From contig OZ035962.1 of assembly GCA_964034945.1 (NCBI GenBank), positions 98,538,784 through 98,602,783 of the forward strand: DNA of 64,000 nt, given 5' to 3'. Below, in pieces: positions 31,372 through 64,000 of the stretch. Source of the DNA: Chrysopilus asiliformis. Its lineage: Eukaryota > Arthropoda > Insecta > Diptera > Rhagionidae. The notes beneath the pieces are model-generated. The model did no database searches, was not told the origin of the DNA, and saw nothing but the letters and a program-made list of their open reading frames with translations. Numbering within the stretch: position 1 is the first letter of the stretch; each line of letters begins with the position of its first letter. A program made the translations under genes and the position numbers.

Positions 31372-31805
31372 TTAGCAAAAGGATAAGGTGTGACCTTATT
31401 GGTCAGGCTGGCAGTGGAAGCTCACTCCGGGGCGCGGTCCCATTACTGCTTACCGCGTGGACTCTTGGCTGCTGGTTTTCACCCCTGGCCCGGTTCATCC
31501 ATCCTTAGCCAACCTGAACGCCTTGGACTCCTCCATGGCGCCCATATTGACGGCAAGCTTAATGCGGACGCCCCGTCAACATGACCTTGCCCACAGCACA
31601 GGACCCCCGACCTCAAGTCAGTCCTACACCCGACCTCCGAGTAGCCGGATTACAGAAGATGCCAACCTTCCAGTCGAAACTACATGCCACAGTTCTCAAA
31701 CGGTTTGTGAAGTTGACCCGATTTCGACACATACCTACTTGAGAAATGCTTCAAAATGCCTCTTCTAATCTTCGTTTCGATGTTGAACTTTTTGCGGTTT
31801 GCGAT
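31372..31805 (-). repeat. Left arm of the SRP RNA inverted duplication
   Basis: This 434-bp arm pairs with 34163-34596 in inverted orientation without any gap. Every paired position sums to 65968. I saw a single base difference, in the upstream region. The arm contains the whole SRP RNA gene plus about 130 bp of upstream flank. Confidence 0.95.
31378..31675 (-). ncRNA. 7SL RNA: Signal recognition particle RNA (7SL), copy 1
   Basis: On the minus strand the transcript starts GACTGGAAGGTTGGC and reads TCTGTAATCCGGCTACTCGG, the conserved 5' Alu domain of 7SL RNA. Helix 6 follows (GGCGTCCGCATTAAG, CAATATGGGCGCC), then helix 8 with GGCTAAGGATGG, GAACCGGGCCAGG, a GGT-GAAA-ACC tetraloop hairpin and AGCAG, the SRP54 binding region. 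It is about 298 nt and ends in a TTTT run, the RNA polymerase III terminator. SRP RNA is the scaffold of the ribosome-bound particle that targets secreted proteins to the ER. The copy is intact. Confidence 0.95.
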
Positions 31806-34162: not shown

Positions 34163-34220
34163 ATCGCAAACCGCAAAAAGTTCAACATCGAAACGAAGAT
34201 TAGAAGAGGCATTTTGAAGA

Positions 34221-34240
34221 ATTTCTCAAGTAGGTATGTG
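34221..34240 (+). promoter_or_regulatory. PSEA-like element upstream of SRP RNA copy 2
   Basis: ATTTCTCAAGTAGGTATG lies about 55-70 bp before the RNA start. It resembles the insect proximal sequence element that drives small nuclear RNA and 7SL genes. The mirror-image copy upstream of copy 1 differs at one adjacent base. Function is inferred from position and similarity. Confidence 0.45.
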
Positions 34241-34292
34241 TCGAAATCGGGTCAACTTCACAAACCGTTTGAGAACTGTGGCATGTAGTTTC

Positions 34293-34590
34293 GACTGGAA
34301 GGTTGGCATCTTCTGTAATCCGGCTACTCGGAGGTCGGGTGTAGGACTGACTTGAGGTCGGGGGTCCTGTGCTGTGGGCAAGGTCATGTTGACGGGGCGT
34401 CCGCATTAAGCTTGCCGTCAATATGGGCGCCATGGAGGAGTCCAAGGCGTTCAGGTTGGCTAAGGATGGATGAACCGGGCCAGGGGTGAAAACCAGCAGC
34501 CAAGAGTCCACGCGGTAAGCAGTAATGGGACCGCGCCCCGGAGTGAGCTTCCACTGCCAGCCTGACCAATAAGGTCACACCTTATCCTTT
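34293..34590 (+). ncRNA. 7SL RNA: Signal recognition particle RNA (7SL), copy 2
   Basis: The RNA sequence appears identical to copy 1, beginning GACTGGAAGG and ending before a TTTT terminator at 34588-34591. All Alu-domain and S-domain landmarks listed for copy 1 are present. The two genes diverge, transcribing away from the 2.6-kb region between their starts. Both look functional. Confidence 0.95.
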
Positions 34591-34596
34591 TGCTAA

Positions 34597-36541: not shown

Positions 36542-36775
36542 ATGTATGCGAGCGTCAATGGCAGAGTTCTTTTATTTTATAAATCGAGTGAACACGGCGC
36601 AATAGATTTGGACGGCGTTCTGCAAGCGTGCAGTCGACTGCAAACGACAATCTCAATGTTAATAAATAACTTTTTTTTAAAACTAAATAAAGATATTGTA
36701 TATGAAAATAAAATCCAAATTTTCCAGTCTTTCAATGTTAATAATACCATTGAGCATCTATTTGAGATTACCTGA
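36542..36775 (+). CDS. Small open frame of unknown function, copy 1 of 3
   Basis: The frame reads MYASVNGRVLLFYKSSEHG and continues DLDGVLQACSRLQTTI before turning AT-rich. The first 40 residues look protein-like. After codon 62 it crosses the border of the cytochrome b561 duplication at 36727, so the C-terminus here is probably chimeric. The same sequence occurs in direct orientation at 40384-40567 and inverted at about 40113-40284. It may be a gene fragment or part of a transposon; I do not recognise it. Confidence 0.35.
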   Translation: MYASVNGRVLLFYKSSEHGAIDLDGVLQACSRLQTTISMLINNFFLKLNKDIVYENKIQIFQSFNVNNTIEHLFEIT

Positions 36776-38603
36776 AAACGGTAGTATCGAATGTTAAAAG
36801 TATTATTATTATTAAATTAAATATTGGAAAGTAATATTAATTAAATGGATGAATACATTTGGCGGAGTCTTCTGTACAATTCCGTTATTGGCCTGATGAA
36901 CACATAAACCCAAATTATGACTATTGCGCCTACCGCAAAGTATCGTTCCAACTCTGTTTTGTCTCCGTGATGCCACCAATGCCCTGTACAAACTACCAAG
37001 AGGATCGTAGCCGCAGATAGAATCATACTGATTAGGCCAGCTAGGGAATGTATAATCTTGGCGCAGACCGGACGAATGCATTTCCGCAGCGGGAAGCTAT
37101 ATTTGGCAAAGATGCCACCACAAGCGGTCAACACAATGCAGATGAAGGTCGCTAGTCCCACTTTTCCGTGGTTCGTATTGAAATTGATTTTGTTATTCCT
37201 GTATTTGACCACTTCGATTGCCAAGAACGCCAGCGACACACAAATCAAACTTCCGACTTGGAGCACCCAGTGAATTGTGACCTTTTTTTTGTACGAGCTC
37301 ACAGACCGGCTTATGAGCGAGTACTCAGCATAAACTAGAATTGCCTCTGACATGAGAAAAATAATCTACGAAGAAAGGGTTATTGACTGTTCTTTGATGA
37401 TGTGGATTGAATTCTTACCCCAATGGCCATTAAAGTCGGATGCCAGGCAAAAAGAGTTACTCCTTCGTCGTCGAAGGTCCAATAGATAAACATCACTGTC
37501 AAAAAAACGCAAAGAAGCTCGACTAGAACCACAAATCCCAGCGTATACCATGATTCCGACTTCTTCGGTCTGCGCATCGTGTCAACTGTTTCTCCATCGA
37601 ACGTTTCCAGCCTAATCTCGGCTTCGTGTTCTTCCAAATTGCTTTTAGTAGTCATCTTTATGAAAATTGAAAATCGACTGACTTAGGGGCGTCAGTTGAA
37701 TTGATCAAGACACTCTACGATTCGTGAAAATAAACTCTGATAATTATTTAAAATCCCCGTGGCCAAGTGTATTATTTTAGTTTTCTTACTTTTTGATAAA
37801 GAAAAAAACATAATATTTGAATTCCAGTCATAGCAAAAACCAAACAAAACGTATATCGCTTGCCGCAAAGCCGACCAAATGCGGATCGAATTGTTGCTTT
37901 GATTGAAAAATGCGATTATTCCCACTATCTTTTCTCTTCTAACCGCAATCCGCTTCCACATTTCGATAAACATTTGGCCATAGTAATTTTCCAATTTTGC
38001 TGTTGGCTTCTAAACGACAAAAAAGTCGTTACTGGTTTTGTATTTTGTTTATTCAAACATAAGATCGGTAAATTACTTTGTTTAGCAAAATCAAGCACGA
38101 AAAAAAAACAAAATTTAACATAATTTTCTCTTATTTGCAGATGTAGCAAATTGATTTTTGGAATTGTATAGAAAAATGAAACACATGAACCTTATTTTCT
38201 GCTCAATCAATTAAAAAGTGCCATTCTATTTAAATTATAGTAAAATGAACATTAAAATTAATTAAAATTATAGCCATAGGAAAGGCGGTATAGGGATTTA
38301 GTATTATGTTTTGCACACAACTTCGCGATCATTTTGCGCTCTAATACCTACGCAATTACCTGAGAATATGAGGTAAAATAAGTCGAAAAAGTAGTTTCTT
38401 ACTTTCCAAGTAGTACACAGGCTATTGAAATAATGTCGGAAATATATAATTTCTCATACAAGTTCTACCTTTGTACTGAGTAAATTAATTAGTTGGTTTA
38501 ATTTAAAAAAAAACTAGTAAAGACAGAGTGTAAAAATATTATTTTACACTATTTACTACACACATCAAAATCTTGTAGGAATACTTGTCACCCCTTGCGA
38601 TGT
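36727..38603 (-). repeat. Left arm of the cytochrome b561 inverted duplication
   Basis: This 1,877-bp arm pairs with 41529-43405 in inverted orientation. All paired coordinates sum to 80132, so there are no indels. One mismatch was noticed, near the inner end. It includes the whole gene and about 950 bp upstream. Confidence 0.95.
36841..37655 (-). CDS. Cytochrome b561 domain protein, copy 1 (CYB561D-like)
   Basis: The inferred exons are 37419-37655 and 36841-37365 (minus), joined in phase to 253 aa. Several membrane segments are visible (GFVVLVELLCVFLTVMFIYW, LICVSLAFLAIEVV, FICIVLTACGGIF, SMILSAATILLVVC and VGAIVIIWVYVFI). Histidines at residues 72 (AWHP), 111 (TIHW), 145 (NTNHGKVG) and 185 (KIIHSLAG) match the four haem-ligating positions of the cytochrome b561 core. 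Family members carry electrons across membranes, often from ascorbate to ferric iron or monodehydroascorbate. The predicted protein is identical to that of copy 2. Confidence 0.88.
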
Positions 38604-41528: not shown

Positions 41529-43405
41529 ACATCGCAAGGGGTGAGAAGTATTCCTACAAGATTTTGATGTGTGTAGTAAATAGTGTAAAATAATATTTTT
41601 ACACTCTGTCTTTACTAGTTTTTTTTTAAATTAAACCAACTAATTAATTTACTCAGTACAAAGGTAGAACTTGTATGAGAAATTATATATTTCCGACATT
41701 ATTTCAATAGCCTGTGTACTACTTGGAAAGTAAGAAACTACTTTTTCGACTTATTTTACCTCATATTCTCAGGTAATTGCGTAGGTATTAGAGCGCAAAA
41801 TGATCGCGAAGTTGTGTGCAAAACATAATACTAAATCCCTATACCGCCTTTCCTATGGCTATAATTTTAATTAATTTTAATGTTCATTTTACTATAATTT
41901 AAATAGAATGGCACTTTTTAATTGATTGAGCAGAAAATAAGGTTCATGTGTTTCATTTTTCTATACAATTCCAAAAATCAATTTGCTACATCTGCAAATA
42001 AGAGAAAATTATGTTAAATTTTGTTTTTTTTTCGTGCTTGATTTTGCTAAACAAAGTAATTTACCGATCTTATGTTTGAATAAACAAAATACAAAACCAG
42101 TAACGACTTTTTTGTCGTTTAGAAGCCAACAGCAAAATTGGAAAATTACTATGGCCAAATGTTTATCGAAATGTGGAAGCGGATTGCGGTTAGAAGAGAA
42201 AAGATAGTGGGAATAATCGCATTTTTCAATCAAAGCAACAATTCGATCCGCATTTGGTCGGCTTTGCGGCAAGCGATATACGTTTTGTTTGGTTTTTGCT
42301 ATGACTGGAATTCAAATATTATGTTTTTTTCTTTATCAAAAAGTAAGAAAACTAAAATAATACACTTGGCCACGGGGATTTTAAATAATTATCAGAGTTT
42401 ATTTTCACGAATCGTAGAGTGTCTTGATCAATTCAACTGACGCCCCTAAGTCAGTCGATTTTCAATTTTCATAAAGATGACTACTAAAAGCAATTTGGAA
42501 GAACACGAAGCCGAGATTAGGCTGGAAACGTTCGATGGAGAAACAGTTGACACGATGCGCAGACCGAAGAAGTCGGAATCATGGTATACGCTGGGATTTG
42601 TGGTTCTAGTCGAGCTTCTTTGCGTTTTTTTGACAGTGATGTTTATCTATTGGACCTTCGACGACGAAGGAGTAACTCTTTTTGCCTGGCATCCGACTTT
42701 AATGGCCATTGGGGTAAGAATTCAATCCACATCATCAAAGAACAGTCAATAACCCTTTCTTCGTAGATTATTTTTCTCATGTCAGAGGCAATTCTAGTTT
42801 ATGCTGAGTACTCGCTCATAAGCCGGTCTGTGAGCTCGTACAAAAAAAAGGTCACAATTCACTGGGTGCTCCAAGTCGGAAGTTTGATTTGTGTGTCGCT
42901 GGCGTTCTTGGCAATCGAAGTGGTCAAATACAGGAATAACAAAATCAATTTCAATACGAACCACGGAAAAGTGGGACTAGCGACCTTCATCTGCATTGTG
43001 TTGACCGCTTGTGGTGGCATCTTTGCCAAATATAGCTTCCCGCTGCGGAAATGCATTCGTCCGGTCTGCGCCAAGATTATACATTCCCTAGCTGGCCTAA
43101 TCAGTATGATTCTATCTGCGGCTACGATCCTCTTGGTAGTTTGTACAGGGCATTGGTGGCATCACGGAGACAAAACAGAGTTGGAACGATACTTTGCGGT
43201 AGGCGCAATAGTCATAATTTGGGTTTATGTGTTCATCAGGCCAATAACGGAATTGTACAGAAGACTCCGCCAAATGTATTCATCCATTTAATTAATATTA
43301 CTTTCCAATATTTAATTTAATAATAATAATACTTTTAACATTCGATACTACCGTTTTCAGGTAATCTCAAATAGATGCTCAATGGTATTATTAACATTGA
43401 AAGAC
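41529..43405 (+). repeat. Right arm of the cytochrome b561 inverted duplication
   Basis: This is the partner of 36727-38603. The match ends at ACATCGCAAGG on the inner side and at GAAAGAC on the outer side. A 100-codon open frame at 42138-42440, also present in the left arm, is not clearly protein-like and is treated as 5' flank. Confidence 0.95.
42477..43291 (+). CDS. Cytochrome b561 domain protein, copy 2 (CYB561D-like)
   Basis: The inferred exons are 42477-42713 and 42767-43291, separated by a 53-bp intron (GTAAGA to CGTAG). The 253-aa product is identical to that of copy 1, including the four haem histidines. Both genes have intact frames, splice sites and equal upstream flanks, so both may be expressed. 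They transcribe away from each other. Confidence 0.88.
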
Positions 43406-49949: not shown

Positions 49950-52027
49950 CGTCAAGCCTTGGTTGGCTACTAGTTGCTGCTGCTATCAGTTTTAATATTG
50001 AACATATTGTACTCTTAGTAAGTGAGAATAGCATTTACGTCACATATTTTTTTACGTTGAAATTTTTTTTTCGTTTTGGCAACCGCTTTTACTGGAAAAG
50101 CGAGAATTCTCTACGAATTTTATGCTGAGACACCCCTAGCTGACCAAGTTTTTATTTAATTTGTGGTGGTCAAATTTTGTACTTATTGAAAAATCAAAGT
50201 CTTTTAAGGGAGTTTTCTTTTATTAAAAAAATGTCCTGGGCTGCGCATACTTTACGCTAATCGTTGCCGTTTCGAACCTCCTTCCATCTTGCCACGTTTT
50301 TTTTCGAATTTTGTATGGGTTTCAATGCCACCGTCACGCTACCACAGTACCCCCGCCCCTCTCCCCAGTAATGTGTGACGTATTTTATTTCTTTCAACAA
50401 ACACTAAAAATTTGACCTCAGCAGTAATCATTTAAAAAGTTTAACCATTCAAATATTTATATGAATATTTAACAATAGTTTTGACGAGGCAGATACTCTG
50501 GACATCGGATAAATGCCTTGAAAATCTTACGTGTGTGTTTGTCGTGTAAGTTTTGCATGCGCGAATAACATTTAGTGGCGTCTCATTTGAATAAAAATAA
50601 GGGTACGGGATTAATTTTTCAATAAATTATTAAACGAATTAATTTTTATTGTTTATAATTTATCGTAGGTGTATTTCTATTAAGAAATCTCCGGAAAGTT
50701 AAAAAAATGAATATGAATTCAAACTCTAAAATCACTTACAAATATATTAAATTAGTAAAGGCATTTTAGCTAATAACACGCAAGTTATTTATATTATTTT
50801 ACAATAAAAGCTAGCTTGGCCATATTTTAAGGTAAAAAAATTTCACAAATATATTTGTTAAAAAATCGAGATTAAAGCATTTTCATGCATTGAAACCACA
50901 TTAAAAATCATTTCGTATCGCACATCATATTCAAAAAAAAAAAATTTTTTAAAGCCAAATCCATGTAAAATTATGTTATTGCCAAATCACAAGCAATTTC
51001 ATTTATGCTAAAAAATATTTAAATTTATATTTGAACAAAATAAAACAATGAATTTTTATTTATTAATTTGTTATTAAATTGAGAAACATAAATTTTATTT
51101 AGGAAATTTTAAGCAAGCATCGATGATTGGATTATTTGCATGATGACTTTTCAACAATGAAAAATAAGCATTTTTTCATCTCTTTTGTTATTTTAAAGAA
51201 AGTTATATAAAAAGAATTTTGAGTATAGAATCTTAAGTTTTTTTTATTAGGAGTATTTTATTTTATTTTATAACGGAGCGAGTTGATGATACGAATATTA
51301 ACAAAATGTATAAATGTATGGAATTAAATTGAAATAAAAAAAAAATAAGGAGATTATAATAGCGATAGAATCGTAGATAGACATCCATCAATGAAGAAGT
51401 TGTTGAAATGACAAAATTTGAATGTTAAATGTTTGCAATATTATTCATCTGAGTGCATTAATGACATCATATTTGAAAAATTCTTGTATTACAAAAGATA
51501 TAATAATTTTATTGTTAAGTACAAAGTTGAAATGATTGTTGGGAGAAATTGAAATGAGCGAGCAAAAAGAAGAAAAAAAAACGAGTGTTACAAACTTTAA
51601 AGAAAAAAAATGAGCGCTTTGTTTCTATTATGTATGTGAATTATTGTAGCAAAATGAATTCGATAGAAATCGAAATTAGTTTTGATGATAACGCTTGAAT
51701 TGAGTCTAAAATGTATTTAAAACTATGTTTGTACATTAATATTGGTTGATGGTATGATTATAAGTTAATTAGGTAGTTTTAAAAACAAATATATAAAAAA
51801 TATACATAAAATATTACTATAATATAATGAATTGAGGTTAAGAAAATAAAATTTAACTCAGAAAATGCTTTTCTTTTTAATTAGTTAACATAAACTGGAA
51901 ACTACGAAAGGTTCTTTTCCATTGCCAATGATTTCTGGATAATTTGCTGATTCCGATTCTGGAAATGGTTTGGCCAGGTTGTCTCCAGTTTTTGAGATAA
52001 TCAAGATCAATTTTTATACGTTTCTTA
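49950..52027. other. MED1 3' UTR and AT-rich intergenic DNA
   Basis: Very AT-rich sequence follows the stop, with many AATAAA signals between 50770 and 51860. No other gene is seen. Confidence 0.5.
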
Positions 52028-52615
52028 TACCCGTATGGTGAAACCAAAGGGTATATTAACTTTGCCTTACCGTTTGTAACGCCAAGATCCCGTCATCACA
52101 CACAGAAATGAATTACACCAGTGTGTTTAGAATGATAAAAATAATTAATTTTTCCATGTCCGTCCGTCCGTCCGTCTGTCTGTCCGTCTGTCTGTCGGTC
52201 TGTCTGTCGGTCTGTCTGTCCGTCTGTCTGTCTGTTCGTCTGTGGCGCGGATTGCGGGCGCACAGATTGAACTAGAGACTAGAAATTTTGCACAGTTCCG
52301 TATGCGAGGCCAAGTTCGTTAATGGGCAAAAATGGACCATTAGGGGGGGTACCCCCCATACGAACGAAAACGGTTTTTGTGAATATCTCGAAAACGGTGC
52401 ATCTTATCAAAAAAGTCCAATAACAAAAGTTATTTAGGATATGATTCTACATAAAACTCCCATACATCAAAATCCGATTGGAAAAAATTTTAAAAAATCT
52501 TATTGGAAAGTTTGACTTCAAAGTGGACTTTTGATACAACTGTTCGCTGTTCACTTAAATCACCATACGGGTTTTCAATAATTGCCAGATTGGCAATTAT
52601 AGCTTTTGTTATGTT
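52028..52615 (+). mobile_element. DINE/Helentron-like repeat, copy 2
   Basis: It begins TATACCCGTATGGTGAAACC, then AAGGGTATATTAAC, a CCGTCTGT microsatellite (52160-52240), GCGCGGATTGCGGGCGCA and AGGGGGGGTACCCCCC. It ends in the ATTGCCAGATTGGCAATTAT hairpin. It has no open frame. At its 52440 region it preserves the uninterrupted target that in copy 1 received the NEURL4 fragment. Confidence 0.78.
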
Positions 52616-56499: not shown

Positions 56500-58435
56500 A
56501 AAAATCTATTTGTGTGGGAGAAGGATGAAAGAGTGGTTAGATTGAATTTTGATGTATGGGAACGGTTATGTAAAATCATATTTTAAATAAATTTTGTCTC
56601 CATAAATTCTTCGATACTATGCGCCGTGGATGAGAGGAATTGGGTCAAAATTAGATTGCAAGACGAAGGCAAGCTAAATAAAATCTTATAAAAAGTATTC
56701 AATTTGGTTGGGGCAGGAGAAAAGGAGTGGTCCAATTGTATTTTAATGTATAGATAAGTTAAGTAAAATTATATTCTCAACACATTTTACCTTTATAAAT
56801 TTTTCAATACGACTCACCGTTTTCGAGAAAATGGTAAAAAACTGGTGGAAGGGGGTTGCCCGTTCAAGAACTTAACCTTAATTTACGAGAAACGCGTCTG
56901 TAAAAAATTTCAAGTCTCTGGCTCAATTCTTTCGAAAGGTGTGGTGTTCACGGCCAGACGGATATGGAGAAATCAAAATCTTTTGTCATACCAAACACCC
57001 TGGTGTAGTTCAATTTTGTGTCCAAAGATTGGTTCGAAAAGTTACAAATGGTATACTAAATCTAATATACATGGTTATATCATATACAATAGAGTATAAA
57101 ATGGTCTCGTTTTAAAGCAAAAGGTGTGCCATTTTTCTCTGGAAACCCCTTTTTTTTATATTAAAACAGAAATGTTCAATGGCCATGTAGTTGTCGTTAG
57201 GCTTGGTTGACAGATGTTGAAATACAATTCTATTGTGGGCAACTGCAGAAAAAAGTTTTAGCTTTGTGGACATCAAAATTATGTGCAGGAAACATGAATG
57301 ATGCTTTCAATTTCACGTTAGAAAGTTGATGAGGATCATGAAATGGAGAAACGGTAGAGTTTTAAAATTCTATCACGTACGTATTTATTTAAAACGACTC
57401 TCATGGAAATCCGGTTATCTTGTCTGATGAACTACTCACAAGTATTACGAATATTTGCTCGTCCTTGTTTGAAAGCTTTAAGCGGTGCATTTTATGGTCA
57501 AGTATTATTAAAACTATTCAGTAGATTGCACACAAGGATATCATTAAACAGAAGCATAAAAGGCAAAATATTAATTTTTTTTATTAATAATGGGTTTCTA
57601 ATGCTTGTAAGCCATTTAAAATCATCAGGAAATGGAAATCTTTACAGTTGAATATGATTAGAAAACACAAGTGACATATTGGCACAAAATTCAAGATCTT
57701 GTGCAGCACTATATTAAGTTTATTACAAAAGAGTCCTTGAATTTTATTGCATATTTATTAAATGATTTTTTATAGTTCTTTGTATAATATTTGAAAAGGC
57801 ATCATTTTTCGAATGCGAGAATATATTTTCCACGTAAGAGATTACCAAAAGAGACACAGAAAAAAAAAATATTGAACACATAATTTTTTTTGTGGGTACT
57901 TAAAACACCTTTTGTAAGCCTACACATTGACGTCACAGTTCACACAGCTGTGATAATGAAATTATTTTTCATGTTGAATTTACCTTTCCTAATTCTTTAC
58001 GCAATTTGATTGAAAGTTTAAAAGTTGATAAAAATTGGTGTAAATGCTTTATTAATCATAGGAAAAATTTGAAAAAAAATTCACCAAATTACAGATAAAG
58101 ACACCAGTTCATTGGAAATTAAAACATTAAGGAAAAAACATATGTAAAACTACAATTGCCAGGGACCAATTGTCTAATACTCTATTTGAGGGCTGGAGGG
58201 AAAAATTGTCAAGAACTTAGCCTTGCTATTTAGAGAAAAACAATTGTACACAATTTCAAGTCTCTAGCTCAATTTCTTCGATAGTTATGGTGTTCACAGA
58301 CGGATAGACAGACGGATATTCGGAAATGAAAATCTCAAATCATACCAAAACACCCTGATGTCATTAATTTTTGTACACGGAGGTTTGGTTCGAGGCGCTA
58401 CAAACGGTATACTAAATCTAATATATTTCTATATG
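56500..58435. mobile_element. Degenerate relatives of the DINE-like repeat
   Basis: Segments at about 56880-57080 and 58140-58430 share TTTCAAGTCTCT.GCTCAAT, a short GACGGATA microsatellite, CATACCAAA.CACCCTG and GGTATACTAAATCTAATATA. They match the same landmarks at 10200-10400. The surrounding 57100-58140 holds no gene I can support. Confidence 0.55.
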
Positions 58436-60125
58436 ATTTTCATATAAAACTTGTATGGCATTGAATTGAAATATAATCATTCAATCTCAAATTATGATAA
58501 CTAAATTTCAACATTTTCTTAGACGATGAAGGATTTCGGTTTATTTCGAAGGAAACTAGCAATTTAATAAGTTCTCAACTTTCTAGTTGTTAATTATATC
58601 ATCGAAATATTATAATTAATGAGAAAAGGGACCATTATATATGACGAAAATCGATAAATGGACTCAAAATATGAGTAGGTTATCTATTATTAAAATGTTT
58701 TACACTTAATTTTATGCGTCATATTAGTTATGTAAAATTTACTTATTTAATTGATACACTTAACGCTTAATGGCTAGATAAGATTATAACATGTGTTTTT
58801 CAATCAACACCATCTTCCATTTAGTTATGGACAGCAGGATAGCTTGCTGATAATATCTTATCTTATTTTCTTAATGCCACTTAGCATATAATAACCGTGC
58901 TGTGATAATAGTGAATATGGAGCAACTAATTTCTATCTATCCAATGGAAAGTACCCAAAAAATATCTCGTTTTTGATTGGATTGCACTTTTACATATATT
59001 TGTGTTTATTTTGGGTGTTCGACAACAGTATTTTTCCAGAAGAAAAAATAATTCTAGATCTTATTTATGAAAGTTTTCTGAAATTTTCAAAATTGATTTT
59101 AAATTATTCTTTCTTGTATCCCAATTTTTTTTTAGTAATTTAGACCATGCCTTAATAAACTTTTGTCATATCCATGTGGTTTTTCAGATTTTTACTTTCC
59201 TCTGCTATAGAGGGAAAGTATTATATCCATGACGGAAACCAACTCGAGAACGGAGACGGATAGAAACTTTCTGATTAGTACGAAATCCGTTTCAAGCTAA
59301 ATTATGAGGATGTCGTACATCTGTCAGTCTGTCGGTCTGTCTGTCTGCCGGTCTGTCCGCTTTACATATCTTAAATAAATCGAGAACACGTTGAGAGAGC
59401 GATTTGAAAACTTTTGGAAAAGTTAGCTATTCTAAAGCCCCCCACACATTTTTTTTTTGAAAATTTCTCAATATTTTTGCGCTTTTGGGATAAAAAGAAT
59501 ATAACAAAATTTAAAGATATAAAATTGTCTATTTTTTTTACTTTAACGGTTTGTACGTATCTCTAACGGTTCTCAAGGTATTAAGTTTTTTGAAAATTTC
59601 ATATAAAAAAAATAAAATTTCCTGCATTTTATCCTTTAACGGTTTTTACTTATCTTTAACAATTCTCGAGATATTTGAAAAAAAAACTGTTTTTCACATA
59701 TTTTTTTCCGAAACTAAATATTACAAAGGCAAGTGTTGTGTCGATCACAACTATTTTTTTTAATATCTTCCGAGTATATACAAAAAAATGTTCTGAAAAT
59801 GCAAAAACATGAGACTTTTTTTTCAGTATGATGATAAATTTGATCAAAAAATACTTTTTGTGAATGTCAAAATGTGCTCTCCATTGATTTCCACAGGTTC
59901 AAAGCGATTTCGAAAAAGGCCTATAGATTGCAAAAAAAATTTATTGAATATTTTTTTGCATTGATTTCACGCTCTGGTAAAATATTATCACTTATTTTCA
60001 ACAAAATAAACAATAATCCGATTTAAATTTTTGATTATATTACCGGTAGTAAATTCTACATGCTTTTCCAGTGGTGGCTTTTATAAATTCGGATCTTAAA
60101 TTTACTTGTGCATTATTTTAGAATC
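58436..60125. other. AT-rich intergenic DNA with an old repeat
   Basis: The stretch 59195-59400 starts CTCTGCTATAGAGGGAAAGT and has a GTCTGTCGGTCTGTCTGTC microsatellite, like other repeats in the window. Nothing coding is seen. Confidence 0.5.
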
Positions 60126-60126
60126 A

Positions 60127-60629
60127 TTATTTGCCATGTCCAAGGGCAACACGGACGTTTCCTGGTATACTCCTTTTTTTGCCATGTCCAAGGGCAACAC
60201 GGACGTTTCCTGGTACACTCCGTTTTTTGCCATGTCCAAGAGCAACACGGACGTTTCCTGGTATACTCCTTTTTTTGCCATGTCCAAGGGCAACACGGAC
60301 GTTTCCTGGTATACTCCTTTTTTTGCCATGTCCAAGGGCAACTCGGACGTTTCCTGGTACACTCCTTTTTTTGCCATGCCCAAGGGCAACACGGACGTTT
60401 CCTGGTATACTCCTTTTTTTGCCATGTCCAAGGGCAACACGGACGTTTCCTGGTACACTCCGTTTTTTGCCATGCCGCAGGAGACTTTCTGGCTCAGGTG
60501 CAGCTTCGATGATTGCAATAATTGCAATCAGAACAATAAAAAAGATGATTTTGAAATCTACAAAAACATGAATTAAACTCTTTAGCAAAGTTTAAAATTT
60601 GTTATTAAAAATTGTCTTCACTCACCCAT
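60127..60629 (-). CDS. Secreted precursor with seven tandem amidated-peptide units
   Basis: The inferred exons are 60626-60629 (ATGG, then donor GTGAGT) and 60127-60557, separated by a 68-bp intron ending TTTTTGTAG. They join in phase to 144 aa. The protein starts MDFKIIFFIVLIAIIAII, a signal peptide ending near EAA, then a short PEPESLLRHG spacer. Seven units of KKRS(V/I)PGNVRVALGHG follow, with V/I in the order V, I, V, I, I, V, I. The last unit ends GK and stop. Cleavage at KKR and amidation at the Gly would release S(V/I)PGNVRVALGH-amide, seven copies per precursor. This architecture is typical of neuropeptide or other secreted-peptide precursors. A TATA box (TATAAAAGGC) at 60673-60682 supports the start. 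The peptide family is not one I recognise. Confidence 0.85.
60133..60468 (-). repeat. Seven 48-bp tandem repeats inside the peptide precursor
   Basis: Units begin at 60133, 60181, 60229, 60277, 60325, 60373 and 60421. They differ at only five sites. In the minus-strand peptide frame four are synonymous (AGG/CGG, GCC/GCT, CGT/CGA, GGA/GGG) and one is I/V (ATA/GTA). Because the 48-bp unit has no stop in most frames, several long plus-strand frames also appear open; these are by-products. Confidence 0.95.
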
Positions 60630-60672
60630 ATTCAATTTTAATATGCTATATGAAATATTCGAACGAGAGGAA

Positions 60673-60682
60673 GCCTTTTATA
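60673..60682 (-). promoter_or_regulatory. TATA box of the tandem peptide gene
   Basis: TATAAAAGGC on the minus strand lies 44-53 bp before the proposed ATG. This leaves a 5' leader of roughly 20 bases if initiation is at the usual distance. Confidence 0.6.
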
Positions 60683-60689
60683 CAAAATT

Positions 60690-61732
60690 TCAAAAGCCTG
60701 TGGATGGAACTAATATTTAGTCAAGTGCACTGTATTTTTCCTTAATATTTTTTTTTTGGTTTTAATTATTTACCGTAGCAAAGATATAATGAGAAATTTG
60801 CTTTCATTTAGAAGAATCATTATTTATTCATTTGTTAAATATACAAGAATAACAGGCTGAGCAACAAAATTTAAACGATATTTAAAAAAAGCAGCTAAAC
60901 AACAGAAGCTAGCAATATAAACAGGGGTTTTTTGAAAATTTTGCAAAAAATATATATTTTGCCAAGTTTTAATTTAATTTTCACCGTAACCTCTTTAATG
61001 TTAAAGCACTTATTCCAACGATTCTACAGCTTCTAGCCCCCTTTCTGGAACTGACTTGACCCTCCGCCACTCAAATTGTGGGCCGATATGAAAGGACAAA
61101 AAAAGTTTGTTTGTACCCCTCTCCTATTTTTACCCGATTTTTTTATGTAGATTCATAAGTTTTCATTATTAGAAAAAGGTTTGACAAAATAAAATCAGGC
61201 GAATACGGTAGATGTAAGGCCTCATTTAGGCCAACGATTTTTGTGTGAATTTCTTCACGAATTTTATTCAAAAGTTGTCAAAATTTGAATTTATTCGGCA
61301 GTTTTGTATGGGAAAATTCGAGTTCGGACGACTTTCAGGAAAATTTTTTTAGATTTACTGTTTAGGAAGCGTCAGTCAAGTTATATTTATTCTAAACTAG
61401 AATTTGGACCCGGCTTCGCCCGGCTAAAAGCGTGAACAGAAAAATAAACTTAGGAAAACTAAATTCAGTTGGTTAAAAATTAGGTAGCCTGCATGTTGTT
61501 CGTTAGTTTTTTCTCTTCGGAAAATGATTAACAAACTAACAAAAAATTCCAGCACTTGCATTCGGTATTACTTTACCCTTACTCCCCCACCTCTTGGGCT
61601 ACTTTTTAATGGGTCTATGTTGGGGCTGGACCCCCGACGAATATCTATGCCAAATTTCAGGCCGATCGGTTTTTTTTAAGACCAAATAGCTCTCAAAAAT
61701 TGCCAGGAAATGATTTTAGTGTTAGCTGCGTT
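60690..61732. other. Intergenic DNA with transposon ends
   Basis: A hairpin ACCCGGCTTCGCCCGGCT next to CTAG at 61397-61400 looks like the 3' end (minus strand) of a second Helitron-like family. At 61565-61670 there is an internal fragment of the copy A/B/C family. No gene is seen. Confidence 0.5.
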
Positions 61733-62300
61733 TTTATACCCGTATGGTGTAACCAAAGGGTATATTAACTTTACCTTACCGTTTGTAACGCCAAGATCCC
61801 GTCATCACACATAAAAATGAATTACACCAGTGTGTTTAGAATGATAAAAAAAGTTGAATTTTGCATGTCCGTCCGTCCGTCTGTCTGTCTGTCCGTCCGT
61901 CTGTCTGTCCGTATGTCTGTCTGTGGCGCGGATTGCGGGCGCACGGATTGGGCTAGAGACTTGAAATTTTGCGCAGATCCGTTTTTCGTAAAATGCGAGG
62001 CTAAATTCGTTAATGGGCAAAAATGGACCATTAGGGGGGGGGGGGGGGGGGGTAACCCACATACGAACGAAATCGTGTGAATATCTCAAAAACGGTGCAT
62101 CTTATCAAAAAAGTGCAAGAACAAAAGTTATTTAGGACATGATTCTACATAAAACTCCCATACATTAAAATCCGATTGGAATCAATTTAAAAAAATCTTA
62201 TTCCAAGTGAAATTTTGGTACAGCTGTTCGAATTTTGATACGAATATCACCATACGGGTCTCCAATGATTGCCAGATTGGCAATTATAGCTTTTGTTATG
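61733..62300 (+). mobile_element. DINE/Helentron-like repeat, copy 3
   Basis: It begins TATACCCGTATGGTGTAACC, then AAGGGTATATTAAC, a CCGTCTGTCTGT microsatellite, GCGCGGATTGCGGGCGCA and a run of about 18 G at 62033-62052. It ends in GATTGCCAGATTGGCAATTA. The landmarks are in the same order as copies 1 and 2. Copy 2 and this copy differ in the length of the G run. Confidence 0.78.
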
Positions 62301-63406
62301 TTCACACAGTAAAAATAGTTGAGCATAATTTGCCAATAGAAAAGTTAATTCCTAATTGACTTTTATAGATATCCTATTTGACTTTTATAGATTAGAACTC
62401 ATCTCCCTCGTCCATATCTTTTGTGGTCAAGACAGTGACAGAGATCTTTGGCGTGAAGATCCAGCCTTTATATTCTCGGGATCGAAACTTGATGTTTCTT
62501 AACCGAAATTTTTCCAGTTCCTCTTTATTTCAATTAAAATTCAATAGTGAACATGAGACACATCTGGCACTACAGAAATAGTTTTGATAAGAACAAAAAT
62601 ATTCCAATATGACCTACATATAGCCCTGGAATTATTTAAAAATAAAATATTAGAATTTAAAAAAAAATTCTTTATTCTGCGAACAACAAAACCAACAAAA
62701 TTTACCAACTAAATATGTTTCCTGTCGATTACAATCCGCTAAGATTCAAAGAAAACATGAACCTTTCAGATCGACCGTTAATAAAAAGGTCGTCCCTTTA
62801 GCTCCGGCTCAATCTATAAAAAAGTTTTTTATGAACAGCTCTTTATAGTATTTCTAATTCATAAGTTTCAATATTCGGAAGGAATTTATTTTTTTAAAAA
62901 AAAGAGAATTTTTTCAGCAATAAAAAAAGAAAATGTTCGCAGTCGAAATTTAAGAATCTTAGCATTTGCAATTTTGATTTCTAAATTCCGTAAAGTGTAA
63001 ACTAGCCTTAAGGCATTAAAGAATATTCAAATAGTATCATATAACTTTTTAAAAGTTTAAAATTAAAATTTCAACAAACAACGATGAGTCATTAAGACAA
63101 ATAATTTAAAATTTTTGCGTTTTGAAAGTGTACGCATATGCGATACAAGCTAGTAACAGTATTCGAAATATTTTTTTTTACTTACTAATGTCGTATTTTA
63201 GGTAAAATATTGGTATATTTTTCAGCTAAATAAACATTTTATGTACAAACGACCTTCAATTTTTCGATATAAACACTTGTAAATTATACGAACAGTGCAG
63301 AAGGTCAACTGATATTCAAAGAATATGGCTTCGGGTAAATAAATTTAATTTTCCAATCGAAAAATACACAAAATTATTTAAAATTCTATTTCAAGGTATC
63401 CATTTT
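62301..63406. other. AT-rich intergenic DNA
   Basis: I see no gene or clear repeat in this stretch. Confidence 0.4.
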
Positions 63407-63547
63407 ATGGCACAAATTGCATTTATATTACTGTTGGCTGTCTTTCTTTTTGCTGTTTGTGTAGATTCTAGTCCTGCAAAAAATACTAATACTATGTCAA
63501 ACTCAACTGGTGGAATACTTCACGATTTGCGACTCAAGTTTTGGTAA
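63407..63547 (+). CDS. Small secreted peptide of 46 residues
   Basis: ATG at 63407 opens MAQIAFILLLAVFLFAVCV, a clear signal peptide, followed by DSSPAKNTNTMSNSTGG and ILHDLRLKFW, then a stop. The TTTTG|GTAATT at the end could also be a splice donor. The best downstream acceptor, TTTTTAG before 63600, would replace the last residue with CGLFFCI. I do not recognise the peptide. It is the third short secreted product in the last 10 kb. Confidence 0.5.
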   Translation: MAQIAFILLLAVFLFAVCVDSSPAKNTNTMSNSTGGILHDLRLKFW

Positions 63548-64000
63548 TTAAAATTTATTTTCAATCCAAAAAGCATTTAATATTTTTTTCCGTTTTTAGT
63601 GGTTTATTTTTCTGCATTTGACAAAGTTTGCTTACCACAACCCCGAGATGTGTTTCTATTAAAAAGCTTAAATACAATAGATAAGCATATCAATATCAAG
63701 TAAAATAATAATTCTTCTAAAGTTATGGTTTTTACTGAATTTCCTAATCATTGCTAAAAATTTGATAAAATTGTTGAACAAAAAAGAAAAAAAAATGTGT
63801 TTGTGTATATTTTGGCCTTTTAAAAGTTCAGTGGTGTATTGTCGCCTCCATAGAACTTTTAAATGGAATACTCTATGGTCAACAGTGGATACTGATTATA
63901 ATGAATTTTTAGAATACAAAACATAAATTATGCCCTTTAATTAATAACAAGCTTAAAGACAAAAATATAGTAAAATGTTAAAAAACTTATCAAACCATTT
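63548..64000. other. AT-rich end of the window
   Basis: Nothing beyond the possible alternative last exon of the preceding small gene can be supported here. Confidence 0.4.

Follow-up and report, generated by a model that had tools for sequence, protein, structure and literature searches.

A single-locus gene of the fly Chrysopilus asiliformis that may encode a precursor of seven near-identical amidated peptides

In a 64,000-nucleotide stretch of the Chrysopilus asiliformis genome (hereafter the window), two coding exons on the minus strand, at 60629-60127, encode a precursor of 144 residues that runs from MDFKIIFFIVLIAIIAIIEA through APEPESLLRHGKKR into seven copies of S(V/I)PGNVRVALGHG. Our preferred reading, to which we assign a probability of about 0.48, is that this is a fly gene present at a single locus, that it specifies a secreted peptide in multiple copies, and that the peptide acts as a regulator of the neuro-, entero- or gland-endocrine kind. 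The predicted gene model, the seven conserved units, and the glycine and basic residues behind each of them can be taken directly from the DNA (Table 1). A two-exon minus-strand gene had been proposed for this locus, and both its coordinates and its splice proved right. The layout of a multicopy amidated precursor was likewise borne out, with a leader, seven near-identical amidation-competent units and dibasic sites.

Table 1. Coordinates of the features of the peptide gene (window positions) and of the cecropin cluster in the same genome
Feature	Position	Strand	Basis or remark
Coding exon 1, ATGG (ATG and one further base)	60626..60629	-	sequence
Intron, 68 nt, donor GTGAGT, acceptor TTTTTGTAG	60558..60625	-	sequence
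Coding exon 2, including stop TAA (60129-60127)	60127..60557	-	sequence
Remainder of predicted signal peptide, (MD)FKIIFFIVLIAIIAIIEA	60502..60557	-	hydropathy, -3/-1 rule
Spacer, APEPESLLRH-G-KKR	60460..60501	-	sequence
Seven 48-bp units, RS(V/I)PGNVRVALGHGKK	60127..60462	-	sequence
TATA box, TATAAAAG	60675..60682	-	53 nt upstream of ATG
AATAAA, candidate polyadenylation signal, ~180 nt beyond stop	59940..59945	-	sequence
Cecropin cluster, five family matches	G000:C2:17400210-17419190		

The start codon does lie in a coding exon of only four bases (ATGG/GTGAGT), as had been claimed. Its ATG encodes the sole methionine of the frame, and without this exon there is no ATG. The length of the intron is not odd for this genome, because the introns modelled in three of four cecropin genes measure 62, 94 or 99 nt under a procedure that admitted GTRAG donors only, introns of 50-120 nt and a C-terminal Gly. 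After MDFK, the hydrophobic leader reaches a hydropathy of 3.68 across 12 residues, and hydropathy together with the cleavage rule identifies it as a predicted signal peptide, with cleavage predicted between IEA and APEP by the -3/-1 rule rather than by a dedicated predictor. The spacer that follows contains two Xaa-Pro dipeptides (AP-EP) and itself ends in an amidation-competent site (RH-G-KKR). Upstream of the gene, the TATA box of the original prediction is present 53 nt from the ATG, and an initiator-like TTTCATA, judged by eye and matching TCAKTY inexactly, lies about 30 nt downstream of the box. The box is nevertheless weak when taken alone, because the window contains 10 copies of TATAAAAG against 6.4 expected.

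Tandem Repeats Finder (TRF) counts 7.2 copies of a 48-bp repeat in the array. Each repeat consists of the 13 residues SxPGNVRVALGHG plus KKR, and the earlier description of seven 16-residue units separated by KKR is therefore correct in the number of units but not in their structure, since the 16 residues include the KKR and the last unit ends with GK-stop. Units 1-6 (six of the seven) end with GKKR. A glycine precedes the cleavage site in all seven, as had been stated, so that every one of these related units carries Gly with one or more basic residues behind it, and an additional HG-KKR site lies upstream of the units, behind APEPESLLRH. From the first unit to the last, the V/I position reads V, I, V, I, I, V, I. 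At the DNA level, the units are 93-100% identical (mean 95.8% over 45 nt), and besides the stop there are five variable sites, four of them synonymous and one giving the V/I exchange. This synonymous share of 4/5 compares with an expected 0.25 (binomial P 0.016). The other five frames, each with six variable sites, show 1, 0, 2, 3 and 0 synonymous changes, and the codon argument alone is modest because antisense frame 1 also has synonymous changes at three of six sites. We considered antisense coding of the array and rejected it: the plus-strand frames are open, but no signal-like start was seen in them and more of the differences change amino acids.

The gene occupies a single locus in the 429-Mb assembly (42 contigs), and this argues against a transposon. 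A transposon carrying many copies of the 48-bp unit across the genome had been named as one finding that would overturn the proposal; an 18-base unit core, allowing up to 2 mismatches, instead gave seven matches in the genome, all within the array, and the same pattern reversed gave three chance matches as a control. We therefore reject a transposon or dispersed repeat. A search with the leader alone returned the peptide gene as its sole match. No paralogue was found by tblastn with the precursor, which gave 26 matches; loci were read for 20 of these, with both strands scanned, and the six weaker matches, which had no locus, were left out of the reading. Of the 20 loci, the peptide gene alone has a frame in which a hydrophobic start occurs together with G[KR][KR]. 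The remaining loci are a 48-bp minisatellite (L017, G000:C2:34340189-34340593) and other tandem arrays. L017 comprises seven identical units and one diverged unit, and its translation is the next-best match to the precursor (E 1.9e-5), a likeness to the unit that is probably due to chance and that makes L017 a convenient control.

The window also encodes proteins with a Neuralized domain, cytochrome b561 and Mediator 1, as recognized by Pfam in the 10 frames scanned. No immune or neuropeptide neighbor gene was recognized by Pfam on these 10 frames or in the frame lists of the window (at least 110 aa) and of locus L013, and none was recognized when the window and loci L013-L015 were scanned for leader-plus-dibasic frames. 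Rfam gave no match over 58000-64000. Several other features of the window were observed. Two arms of 1877 nt (36727-38603 and 41529-43405) are 100% complementary, lie 2.9 kb apart and each contain the same cytochrome b561 frame, and a second perfect complementary pair of 434 nt is present at 31372-31805 and 34163-34596; these perfect inverted pairs reflect either an inverted duplication of very recent date, a gene conversion event or an artefact of assembly. Two copies of a dispersed repeat whose core is a TGTC/TGTCCGTC microsatellite flank the peptide gene (52022-52615 and 61731-62302, pieces 85-96% alike), and these TGTC-rich repeats do not overlap it. About 2.8 kb from the peptide gene, on the opposite strand, a 46-residue frame with a leader-like start, MAQIAFILLLAVFLFAVCVDSSPAKNTNTMSNSTGGILHDLRLKFW, occupies 63407-63547 (+); it has no Pfam match and is possibly another small secreted peptide.

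An array of this kind could in principle be a 48-bp minisatellite that encodes nothing and has open frames by accident. All six reading frames are indeed open over the array, and tandem arrays with open frames are abundant in the genome, L017 being a second example with a 48-bp unit. In simulations with 10,000 random 48-mers per composition, the share of arrays with at least one open frame was 94% for window composition and 99.5% for unit composition, and an open frame is therefore no evidence for a gene. The amidation site by itself is weak evidence as well, because G[KR][KR] lies in an open frame in 2.7% (window composition) to 7.8% (unit composition) of random arrays. Among 40,000 positions drawn at random in the window, 0.27% had an open hydrophobic leader in frame no more than 35 codons upstream at a mean hydropathy of 3.0, and 0.065% had one at 3.6. 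When the 205 nt upstream were shuffled 20,000 times under a first-order Markov model, a spliced start, defined by a GTRAGT donor, a YAG acceptor with pyrimidine tract, an intron of 50-110 nt and an in-frame ATG, arose in a fraction of 0.0003. Note that these criteria were chosen post hoc, with the gene already known, and that the chance rates serve as guides. A chance coincidence of amidation sites, leader, spliced start and silent unit differences is unlikely. These four features coincide in the peptide gene, whereas in L017 each unit is interrupted by a stop in the matching frame, and no frame there joins a hydrophobic start to G[KR][KR]. We therefore regard a non-coding minisatellite as very improbable.

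Prohormones are generally processed by a convertase that cuts at a basic site, followed by carboxypeptidase trimming and amidation at Gly. By this route, the preproprotein would enter the secretory pathway and a PC2-type convertase, which in Drosophila is amontillado, would cut after KKR, whereupon a carboxypeptidase would trim the basic residues and PHM/PAL would amidate the exposed Gly; for the last copy (GK-stop), trimming and amidation would suffice. Each precursor would yield three copies of SVPGNVRVALGH-amide and four of SIPGNVRVALGH-amide, 12 residues each, with calculated [M+H]+ values of 1204.691 and 1218.707 and [M+2H]2+ values of 602.849 and 609.857, respectively, and the spacer may also release APEPESLLRH-amide, with a calculated mass value of 1147.622. 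The amidated peptides would act on a receptor, and the copy number would raise the dose ("more of the same"). Furin usually requires Arg at P4. Six of the unit sites read HGKKR, and because P4 is Gly and not Arg, these GKKR sites appear to be of the convertase/amidation type rather than the furin type. The allatostatin-A precursor encoded in this genome, an assignment that rests on sequence reading with a Pfam match below cut-off (E 1.77), carries the sites YAFGL-GRR, LPVYNFGL-GKR and RPYSFGL-GKR. Because the Gly-plus-dibasic sites of the peptide gene match those of the allatostatin-A precursor and are unlike the furin sites of fly repeat defence genes, we favor the regulated secretory route.

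Precursors of the allatostatin-A and FMRFamide type likewise combine a signal peptide, tandem paracopies, and Gly plus a dibasic site after each copy (PMC2575521, in the part available). The three allatostatin-A copies read in the same fly differ from one another, whereas the units of the peptide gene are nearly identical. To our knowledge, no motif of allatostatin-A or of any other neuropeptide family occurs in the mature peptide. Conservation across orders is the rule among insect neuropeptides, and the absence of any relative therefore counts against a regulatory role, although the collections searched could not have revealed one. The cecropin and allatostatin-A genes of this genome appear to resemble their counterparts in brachyceran flies, which agrees with a fly as the host.

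A strong rival to the regulatory reading is that the gene encodes a host-defence peptide in several copies, or else an immune regulator induced by infection, in the fat body or epithelia, with repeats that boost output after infection, as has been suggested for apidaecin, ant hymenoptaecin, Baramicin and the drosocin of subgenus Drosophila. We consider this possible, though less likely than the regulatory reading. The APEP behind the leader is of the XP-dipeptide type reported, in the accessible text of PMC12882233, for cecropin, diptericin, drosocin, hymenoptaecin, venom peptides and Mibin, and it counts against the regulatory reading because defence and venom precursors carry such dipeptides. 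A short gene with a single intron and near-identical repeats would also suit a defence peptide. Tandem drosocin of the subgenus Drosophila and Baramicin A likewise supply several related short secreted peptides per precursor, but in the available portions of the sources their cleavage sites are furin-like, RVVR in the drosocin repeats (PMC5078906) and RXRR in Baramicin (PMC8423362). The peptide gene lacks the furin P4 Arg, the RXXR sites, and the drosocin ERPPY/PRPT and IM10-like VXRPXRTV motifs given there, and unlike these genes it has a Gly amidation site behind each unit. Amidation signals do occur in defence peptides too, since two cecropin frames of the same fly have Gly before the stop. 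With one Arg and no Lys, the mature peptide is not strongly cationic, and the Baramicin IM10-like peptides are likewise not overtly cationic in the part of PMC8423362 available. Repeated mature peptides with basic cleavage sites are also found in apidaecin and ant hymenoptaecin, for both of which dose amplification by repeats has been proposed (PMC3415428, in its accessible part; for apidaecin, in part as cited there). Ant hymenoptaecin has an EAEP spacer and RR/KR for each unit, whereas the XP dipeptides of the peptide gene occur once, before unit 1, and its 12-residue unit bears no likeness to the 97-residue hymenoptaecin. Ibin and Mibin are likewise short secreted fly peptides, with one or more XP dipeptides after the signal peptide in 102 of 144 Mibins, but the Mibin RPXTLPPN/QRPXXPN/DF and Ibin KNHEEWXG motifs given in the available text (PMC12882233) are absent from the peptide gene, which has seven units. 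Drosophila Edin is described as a secreted protein of 115 aa in the portion of PMC2453329 available. The cecropins of the same genome share with the peptide gene a short leader, a C-terminal Gly and, in the modelled genes, a single short intron; they encode one peptide per gene, and the four leaders read end with GQSEA or GQGEA, without APEP.

The upstream region and the neighborhood also bear on control by infection. The tighter kB element GGGGATTTTT is present at -181 to -198 from the ATG in three of the four cecropin genes examined (of five family matches) and is absent within 2 kb upstream of the peptide gene, which lowers the likelihood of immune control. The argument is weak, however, because one of the four cecropin genes also lacks GGGGATTTTT and because GGGGTTTTTT, on the opposite strand at -295 of the peptide gene, fits a loose kB pattern that occurs 0.19 times per kb locally. 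A GATA site (WGATAR) is absent from the 1 kb upstream, where 2.4 are expected, and present in all four cecropin genes. No immune gene was recognized beside the peptide gene in the frames and loci named above. The peptide might instead be a product of a male accessory, salivary or similar gland, amidated by the same route and acting on mate, food or substrate. Near-identical units suggest recent amplification or homogenization, as would fit fast-evolving gland peptides, and the sequence shows nothing incompatible with such a source; we found no positive evidence for it and judge it unlikely.

Insect neuropeptide families are marked by C-terminal motifs such as FGLamide, RFamide, PRXamide and WX6Wamide, none of which is present at the mature end, VALGH-amide. 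Pfam gave no family above cut-off for the precursor, the best being Nsp2_AV at 19.6 versus 20.8 bits over residues 21-54, with no stretch passing alone. The protein collection yielded no relative among 7,994 candidates scored, a result that is uninformative because a control query with the cytochrome b561 exon was also without a relative (49 candidates). No relative was detected in viral contigs, where 53 stretches fitted a pattern and none was confirmed, and the best match among solved structures, ribosomal protein uS5 (E 0.22), is not meaningful. Pieces of the unit matched no related peptide in open-licence papers. In that literature, the string RVALGH occurs in a single paper, on Pieris growth rate, as far as its text is available, and a wasp-venom peptide that ends with LGH-NH2 is unrelated to the unit in the accessible part of PMC8708821. 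This kind of gene is known, and the peptide family appears to be new within what could be searched.

We tentatively propose that S(V/I)PGNVRVALGH-amide may be a fly-lineage-specific signaling peptide, kin to no known neuropeptide or immune family and recently amplified to seven near-identical copies. If expressed, the gene would be one that single-exon finders start wrongly, its ATG being in a 4-base exon, and exact peptide masses would be available to look for. It would also provide a case of near-identical units with few differences, almost all of them silent.
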